The position numbers and the translations under genes are program-made. The notes under the pieces are model-generated. The model was not told the DNA's origin. It searched no databases and saw only the letters and a list, made by a program, of their open reading frames with translations. Positions 4,956-39,095 of a stretch of 64,000 nucleotides of DNA are shown piece after piece (position 1 is the first letter of the stretch; each line of letters opens with the position of its first letter). The stretch is from Lachnospiraceae bacterium (GTDB lineage: Bacteria; Bacillota; Clostridia; Lachnospirales; Bianqueaceae). The DNA is taken from assembly GCA_022794035.1 (NCBI GenBank), contig JAAWDX010000003.1, forward strand, positions 186,001 to 250,000, read 5' to 3'.

Positions 4956-4979
4956 CGGCTCAACCTATGATACAATAAA

Positions 4980-5136
4980 GGCGGCAAAGCAAATTTGGCT
5001 AGTCAAATCCCTGAGTCGCCTTATAAATTTGTCGCAAGTGACAAACTCCGATGTTATCACAGTATACAAATGATCTTTTAGATCATTTGTATTAAGAGTG
5101 ACTTTTGCTAATCTTATGCGATCGCAAGAATCCATA
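4980..5136 (+). repeat. Structured intergenic element, copy A
   Basis: Outer arms GGCGGC (4980-4985) and GTCGCC (5015-5020), core TCAAATCCCTGAG, and hairpin TTTGTC/GACAAA (5028-5045), then GATCGCAAGAATCC near 5123-5136. It aligns with the copies at 38358 and 38448. An additional perfect 10-bp hairpin ACAAATGATC/GATCATTTGT (5066-5090) is present only here. The element sits just upstream of the GNAT gene. Confidence 0.65.
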
Positions 5137-5173: not shown

Positions 5174-5704
5174 GTGCAGATGAATATTGAGCTTGTAAAA
5201 TTAACGAGTGAGTATAAAGAACAGCTTATAGATATGCTGACAGAATGGAAAAATGATATCCTTATCAATCATACGGATAAGTCTCCGGGCAGGTTATGGG
5301 CCAATGATTTTCATGATTTTGATCATTATCTTAAAAACCTAGAGATCAAAGAGGATACCCCCGGTGGACTAGTTCCGGATACAACATTATTTTGTCTTGA
5401 TAAAGACAGGAATATTTTCGTAGGAGCTGTCAATATCCGGCACTATCTCAATGAGGCATTATTAAAAAATGGCGGTCATATAGGCGATGGAATTAGACCC
5501 AGTGAAAGAAGAAAGGGCTATGCAACGGCCATGATCACTTTGGCGCTAGAGGAATGTAAAAAGCTTGGCATTGATAAGGTGCTCATGTGCTGTGACAAAG
5601 ACAATATTGGTTCGGCGAAATCAATCATAAATAATGGCGGTGTATTGGAAAATGAGATCGAAGAGGACGGGCATATCGAGCAGCGGTATTGGATTCAGCT
5701 GTAG
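5174..5704 (+). CDS. GNAT family N-acetyltransferase
   Basis: A 176-residue cytosolic acetyltransferase. The acetyl-CoA-binding motif A is seen as 'GDGIRPSERRKGYATAMI' (about residues 108-125), followed by 'VLMCCDKDNIGSAKSIINNGG', typical of RimI/'predicted acetyltransferase' relatives. The N-terminal part ('MLTEWKND', 'FHDFDHYLKN') matches GNATs annotated in clostridia as resistance-like; substrate is unknown. The GTG start is 9 bp after GGGGGTG; an ATG at 5180 is an alternative. The gene stands alone after a structured repeat and before a PHP gene 42 bp downstream. Confidence 0.85.
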   Translation: MQMNIELVKLTSEYKEQLIDMLTEWKNDILINHTDKSPGRLWANDFHDFDHYLKNLEIKEDTPGGLVPDTTLFCLDKDRNIFVGAVNIRHYLNEALLKNGGHIGDGIRPSERRKGYATAMITLALEECKKLGIDKVLMCCDKDNIGSAKSIINNGGVLENEIEEDGHIEQRYWIQL

Positions 5705-38327: not shown

Positions 38328-38355
38328 TTGTCACGGTACAAAGTTATGGTATAAT
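38328..38355 (+). promoter_or_regulatory. Sigma-A-like promoter entering the repeat block
   Basis: TTGTCA (38328-38333), 16-bp spacer, TATAAT (38350-38355) with an extended ATGG. Another ATGGTATAAT lies just after copy B2, near 38528-38537. Confidence 0.6.
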
Positions 38356-38357
38356 AA

Positions 38358-38433
38358 GCGCAGCAAGAAATATTTCGGCTATTCAAATGCTTGTGCTACG
38401 CTCCAAGTTTGCCCTCGGCAAACTTGCGATATT
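38358..38433 (+). repeat. Structured intergenic element, copy B1
   Basis: Arms GCGCAGC (38358-38364) and GCTACGC (38395-38401), core TTTCGGCTATTCAA, hairpin CAAGTTTGCC/GGCAAACTTG (38404-38426), then GATATT. Confidence 0.65.
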
Positions 38434-38447
38434 GGTGGCATAACATA

Positions 38448-38578
38448 GGCGGCAAGGCGATTTCGGATATTCAAGTCCCTGAGCCGCCATATGAGTTTGC
38501 TGCAAAGCAGCAAACTCTGATATCGCCATGGTATAATGCAGACACAGAACGACCGCAAGAATCCCGCAGGGATTTCTT
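38448..38578 (+). repeat. Structured intergenic element, copy B2
   Basis: Arms GGCGGC (38448-38453) and GCCGCC (38483-38488), core TTCGGATATTCAAGTCCCTG, 11-bp hairpin GAGTTTGCTGC/GCAGCAAACTC (38493-38517), GATATCG, then CGCAAGAATCC as in copy A, and a final AATCCC/GGGATT hairpin. Confidence 0.7.
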
Positions 38579-38621
38579 GTTGAATCTTTGATTTTGTAAA
38601 TTAAAATTGGGAGGAACCAAT

Positions 38622-39095
38622 ATGAAGGATTATAAAGAATATGTAGACAAGATCATCCAGAGCGCGAAGGAGCTTGCTGAAACCGTCAGTGACAAAACGA
38701 AGCAGACAGCGTCCACAGCGAAAATTGAGCTGGATATCAAAAAGGCAGAGCGAGAACTTGAAAAAGCGTATAAAGCGCTGGGGCGCATCATGTATCAGAT
38801 CGAGATCGGCAGCCTCAGGCGCGACGAGCAAATCATCAAGGTAGCCTGCGCGCAGGTAAAGCAGCAGGAGGAGCAGATTGCCCAGCTTGAAAAAGAAAAG
38901 GAAACTATCAAGAAACAATATGCCGACGGCCCGATCGATGTAGAGGGACAGGAGGTCACGCCAGAAGAAAGCGCGCCGCAGCCCAAGCCGCAAAAAAATC
39001 AGGACGGTTATTTTGTGCTCAAATTCTGTCCGTATTGCAAAGTCGGCAACCATCCCGATGCAACCAAATGCGTCAGCTGCGGTCATGACATTTAA
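38622..39095 (+). CDS. Coiled-coil protein with C-terminal zinc ribbon
   Basis: 157 residues from ATG 38622 (GGGAGG site); a start 15 bp earlier falls in the ribosome site. Residues 1-110 are strongly helical, with heptad pattern ('KAERELEKAYKALGR', 'QQEEQIAQLEKEKETIKKQ'); a proline-rich linker and a Cys4 ribbon 'FCPYCKVGNHPDATKCVSCG' follow. Cytosolic. Function unknown. The next gene overlaps by 11 bp. A structured repeat lies upstream. Confidence 0.75.
   Translation: MKDYKEYVDKIIQSAKELAETVSDKTKQTASTAKIELDIKKAERELEKAYKALGRIMYQIEIGSLRRDEQIIKVACAQVKQQEEQIAQLEKEKETIKKQYADGPIDVEGQEVTPEESAPQPKPQKNQDGYFVLKFCPYCKVGNHPDATKCVSCGHDI

Follow-up and report, generated by a model that had tools for sequence, protein, structure and literature searches.

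The window, i.e. the whole 64,000-nt stretch of DNA that was analysed, contains three copies of a two-hairpin element of approximately 100 bp, all on the + strand. Copy 1 lies upstream of a gene for a GNAT acetyltransferase, and copies 2 and 3 stand in tandem upstream of a gene for a protein of unknown function with weak similarity to zinc ribbons. An earlier, sequence-only reading had placed the copies at 4980, 38358, and 38448; all three are found there, and their inner hairpins and outer arms were recovered as inverted repeats. The span that it gave to the tandem pair, up to 38578, does hold two units of this kind (type I), but its end also takes in a different hairpin module (type II). The features are as follows:

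4966 to 5062, + strand: copy 1, with -10 TACAAT (4971-4976), P1 arms (4980-4985/5015-5020), P2 (around 5028-5033/5040-5045), and a tail
5174 to 5704, + strand: GNAT acetyltransferase gene downstream of copy 1
38328 to 38333, + strand: -35-like hexamer TTGTCA in unique DNA beyond the element, 16 bp upstream of TATAAT, assigned from sequence and from -35 enrichment at fixed spacing
38346 to 38357, + strand: extended -10 box ATGGTATAATAA, the 5' boundary of copy 2
38358 to 38401, + strand: copy 2 P1, type A, arms GCGCAGC/GCTACGC (38358-38364/38395-38401), from inverted repeat and model match (C3:224345-224438, which is 38345-38438 of the window)
38404 to 38426, + strand: copy 2 P2 CAAGTTTGCC/GGCAAACTTG, arms 38404-38413/38417-38426, from inverted repeat
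38427 to 38447, + strand: copy 2 tail CGATATTGGTGGCATAACATA, with a degenerate -10-like sequence at its end
38448 to 38488, + strand: copy 3 P1, type B, arms GGCGGC/GCCGCC (38448-38453/38483-38488), from inverted repeat
38493 to 38517, + strand: copy 3 P2 GAGTTTGCTGC/GCAGCAAACTC, arms 38493-38503/38507-38517, from inverted repeat
38528 to 38538, + strand: trailing extended -10 sequence ATGGTATAATG that closes the array, from repeat search
38554 to 38579, + strand: type II module hairpin CGCAAGAATCCC/GGGATTTCTTG, elsewhere in the genome also bounded by TATAATA
38622 to 39095, + strand: gene downstream of copies 2 and 3

The open reading frame of the last gene is listed from 38607, and the ATG at 38622 has a good ribosome site before it. 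Among the outer arms, one C-A mismatch occurs in GCGCAGC/GCTACGC and one G-T pair in GGCGGC/GTCGCC.

As the sequence-only reading had proposed, a covariance model was built from aligned copies (12 in number) and used to search the genome and its relatives. Approximately 50 to 55 copies were found at about 36 places of the own 2.3-Mb genome, standing singly or in arrays of up to four units, and many of the matches outside the training set have E values of 1e-15 to 1e-24. The unit consists, in order, of an extended -10 box (TRTGNTATAATA), P1 (a 7-8 bp stem with a loop of 29-30 nt), three bases, P2 (a 7-12 bp stem, GAGTTTG...CAAACTC), and a tail of 14-25 nt, after which a further TATAATA often follows. 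The TATAAT-like box that had been noticed beside each copy is a constant part of the unit, and many units have TATAATA on both sides, an appearance that tandem duplication would share. Two main P1 types, GCGCAGC and AGGCGGC, coexist in the own genome, and perfectly paired arm variants occur within one genome (for instance TCGCGAC/GTCGCGA and AAGTGGC/GCCACTT), as do many variants of P2. In the 12-copy alignment, 97% of the cells are paired compared to 87% in shuffles, and seven pairs are changed on both sides. With relatives added, double-sided changes affect 15 of the 18 pairs, a level that none of 500 shuffles and no slid control came near, and both stems covary strongly. Therefore, further copies and covariation, the two points on which the sequence-only reading had staked itself, are both present.

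The position of the arrays relative to genes is highly regular. A co-directional gene lies downstream in 53 of the 59 scorable arrays of G004 and G008, the two species of the sister genus g4 (P = 2e-10), and also in nearly all arrays of the own genome, for which orientation is taken from open reading frames called for this analysis; the gene upstream may have either orientation. Among first-in-array copies, whose flank is unique DNA, a TTGACA-like -35 hexamer is enriched 17 bp before the TATAAT of the element (z = 7.0 for 52 g4 copies and 3.5 for 28 own copies). Because this enrichment occurs in unique flanking DNA and at a fixed spacing, the -35/-10 pairs of the arrays look like real sigma-A promoters. 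Standard spacing predicts that transcription starts inside the 5' arm of P1, and thus most of this arm would be absent from RNA made from the array's own promoter. The genes downstream in the own genome are a mixed group (queA, HSP90, trxA, nagB, UGPase, MATE, PBP, and others), and thioredoxin is the only one common to the own genome and g4. The lists of downstream genes from these two sources contain no coherent set, and the idea of a shared regulon was dropped because the genes are unrelated. At one site (L091, G000:C1:54950), the element lies between the promoter and the FMN-type riboswitch leader of an ECF transporter gene, and a sister species has the same leader without the element.

The same architecture occurs in four genera of the bacterial family, and in G017, G018, G002, G006, and G015 it is built from other sequences. 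No convincing copy was found among 276 genomes of other families in the order (weak model matches in G036, G077, and G154 were read and rejected), and searches of plasmid, phage, and IMG/VR sequences gave no match. In g4, a partial second unit trails many copies. The P2 stem of the G004 and G008 copies additionally has a conserved C-T mismatch (46 cells, alignment A5), which recalls the conserved irregularity of Escherichia coli REPs. Anchoring differs in the genus g5, where it involves stop codons: in five cases from G017 and G018, P1 starts 0-4 nt after the TAA stop of the upstream gene (L062, L066, L284-L286), and in four others, one of them in G006, the upstream frame ends at a TGA within the element (L277, L281, L282, L291). 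Therefore, -10 anchoring belongs to g1, the genus of the own genome, and to g4.

Empty sites, whose comparison had been suggested as a check on mobility, were found. At rhaB, an isomerase gene, and tadA, the alignment of G004 with G008 is clean as far as the -10 region and resumes in the leader and gene; what lies between is the element, present in G008 only. Promoters without the element, read by eye, also occur in G001, the other genome of the own genus, at trx, queA, a divIVA-like gene, and the ECF gene with the FMN riboswitch. The window locus of G001, likewise read by eye, has the -10 box followed directly by the type II module, and the window has two type I units between the two; this filled/empty pair and those at PPK2 and PBP gave poor automatic alignments, were read by eye, and were kept out of the evidence. 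Judging from the orthologous promoters without the element, it comes and goes directly behind the -10 box, and insertion, not deletion alone, may explain the empty sites. The mobile palindromic element that had been offered as one reading of the three copies is thus well supported, given the high copy number, tandem expansion, presence and absence at orthologous promoters, diverse downstream genes, and genome-specific stems. At least 11 downstream-gene matches are common to G004 and G008, the flanking DNA is conserved as well in ten of these, and further shared sites were seen. Since sites common to these two congeners exceed the random-insertion expectation, part of the copy set is old and retained, and many copies belong to this part.

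Growth of the arrays is local: loops are 0.90 identical between tandem neighbours but 0.56 identical elsewhere within a genome, and neighbours often share a -10 variant as well as their locus-specific loops. Ordinary promoter DNA that duplicates in tandem and slips during replication, without any transposition, would produce this pattern, and such slippage is valid as the source of array growth. However, local duplication cannot place one P1-P2 architecture at about 36 unrelated promoters of one genome and in four genera, which contradicts slippage as the full account and makes it highly improbable in that role. The other suggestion of the sequence-only reading, a cis-regulatory RNA (a riboswitch or protein-binding leader) in which many genes are controlled through P1 and P2 folded in the mRNA, would fit the strong covariation, the stable predicted RNA fold, and the constant position in the leader in sense orientation. 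Selection on an RNA strand should nevertheless favour G-T over A-C pairs, and no such excess is seen: the element stems contain 28 G-T and 29 A-C among 1,995 pairs, counts that depend on structure-fitted alignments, whereas tRNA stems of the same genome contain 33 G-T and no A-C among 582. Because the tRNA program may leave A-C pairs undrawn, the G-T rate is the safer contrast, and at 1.4% in the element versus 5.7% in tRNAs it is fourfold lower. The palindromes therefore seem to be kept at the DNA level, which favours a DNA palindrome over a regulatory RNA. Additionally, there is no regulon, almost no targets are common between genera, tandem copies grow locally, and the predicted start site cuts P1. 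Rfam gave no match at gathering scores and only chance-level weak matches at permissive thresholds, and no reading of the P1 loop as a K-turn, T-loop, CsrA site, or pseudoknot, inspected by eye, held across genera. A regulatory RNA is accordingly considered quite unlikely.

The stems also change in concert. P1 arms are 0.92 identical within genomes but 0.71 identical at orthologous sites between genomes, no higher than for random loci of the two genomes, and the dominant arm is GCGCAGC in G008 (25 of 37) and GCGTGGC in G004 (17 of 23). Such genome-specific arms point to a putative co-evolving trans factor, and a trans-acting reader of the P1 arms would be their simplest cause. One such factor could be a DNA-binding repressor, with the P1 and P2 inverted repeats as its double-stranded sites at a promoter operator; a drifting binding motif, the position over the start site, and the lack of G-T bias would all agree with this. 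It is very unlikely, however, as one protein motif leaves the several perfectly paired arm sequences of a single genome unexplained and the downstream genes are unrelated. The genome-specific hairpins also resemble REP/RAYT co-evolution, and a REP/REPIN-type system could be moved by the RAYT-like protein of the family. This single-copy Y1/HUH protein is encoded between ftsY and oadG in the genomes whose neighbourhood was read, is present in 16 of 19 family genomes, among them all 10 of good quality, and matches NCBIfam REP_Tyr_transpos below the cut-off. The protein has an intact HUH motif and an intact catalytic Tyr in G000, G001, G002, and G018, but both are lost in G004 and G008, and yet stems and sites changed after these two species split. 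It is therefore not the mover there, and RAYT mobilisation was rejected as a general answer; in G008 no other Y1 transposase was found at E<=0.001. Furthermore, the gene has no element immediately next to it in G000, G001, G018, or G009 (in G004 and G008, an element stands before pyrE, at a distance of 1.2-1.3 kb), and the GTAG tag is missing. Mobilisation by this protein is thus unlikely, although it may keep a binding role. The protein is vertically inherited with repeated loss of catalytic residues (L144, L145, L146, L212, L213, and others), and in G002, G006, and G010 its open frame is about 680 aa long, so that the protein is probably fused to another domain there.

Instead, the element is probably a non-autonomous REP/MITE-like palindromic repeat, restricted to one Clostridia family as searched, which in g1 and g4 lies in sense orientation behind the -10 box of existing sigma-A promoters. 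This rests on the observed number of copies and their architecture, on covariation, on orientation and anchoring to -10/-35 sequences, on orthologous promoters with and without the element, on arrays that grow locally in tandem, and on genome-specific stems. In g1 and g4, such a repeat would enter, or be kept, directly behind the -10 box in sense orientation; from this position, it would leave the gene its own -35 and -10 and add a hairpin-rich leader. The stems may be read as DNA hairpins, either single-stranded or cruciform, by a putative trans-acting enzyme or protein whose specificity would drift together with them. For the gene, the probable consequence is a slight adjustment of initiation or of leader stability, and not a regulatory response common to the downstream genes. 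In a bolder version, which is improbable, expression signals would guide insertion, with the sigma-A -10 box as the signal in g1 and g4 and stop codons in g5, and the hairpin reader would be a domesticated RAYT-like HUH protein, its catalysis lost in g4. If true, a former transposase would now be a hairpin-binding regulator at dozens of promoters.

The element is best filed as a new family of promoter-anchored REP/MITE-like palindromic repeats. Its habit of anchoring to the -10 box is unusual, because small palindromic repeats normally avoid promoters and are usually tolerated near gene ends. Mycobacterial MIRUs are similarly oriented tandem units (about 50-100 bp) fixed to an expression signal, in their case stop/start codons, but the main anchor of the present element is a promoter -10 box and its unit is a double palindrome. 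MITEs are defined by terminal inverted repeats, which are absent here, as the unit ends (AGCGCAGC... and ...GTCATGG) are not mutually inverted. The element nonetheless resembles the Correia elements of Neisseria and other MITEs, which are small and non-autonomous and can contribute promoter parts (PMC3049150). Like pneumococcal BOX, RUP, and SPRITE, it is a modular hairpin repeat of about 100 bp in a Gram-positive genome, with no functional class of targets (PMC3049150). However, BOX and RUP occur more often than expected between convergent genes (PMC3049150), whereas the present repeat nearly always precedes a co-directional gene and is fixed to a -10 box, a comparison that for BOX concerns genomic context only. 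With REP/REPIN/BIME and RAYT (TnpAREP) systems it shares short high-copy palindromes, tandem or mosaic clusters, genome-specific stems, and a RAYT-like gene in the genome, and some g5 copies lie against a stop codon or provide it, a trait also of GTAG REPs (PMC3733652). In contrast to these systems, it has a two-hairpin unit of about 100 bp, its RAYT-like gene is not flanked, and there is no conserved GTAG/CGTC tag, CGTC being found in the tail of G000 copies only and not in g4. REPs are also found mainly near 3' ends, between unidirectional or convergent genes, and often contain G-T pairs (PMC3733652), unlike the present element, which lies at promoters and in which such pairs are rare. The dozens of unrelated promoters, including those of housekeeping genes, offer natural with/without pairs for the effect of a start-site hairpin on transcription, and stems that change in concert across one genome are a tractable case that should point to the reader protein.

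Other hairpin modules accompany the type I units. The type II module (ACAGGACGACCGCAAGAATCCC...GGGATTTCTTG, with a second hairpin AAGTTCAGYGARGAAYGAGCYGAACTT) was seen at about 25 places of the own genome (including L082-L098) and also in G001. It may precede or follow type I, is often bounded by TRTGRTATAATA, and sits between TATAATA sequences. Additionally, some arrays of the own genome (L031, L036) are followed by other hairpin modules (AAAATGATCTTTAGATCATTTTT and AAGATTGCC...GGCAATCTT), which are possible terminators or further repeat modules.
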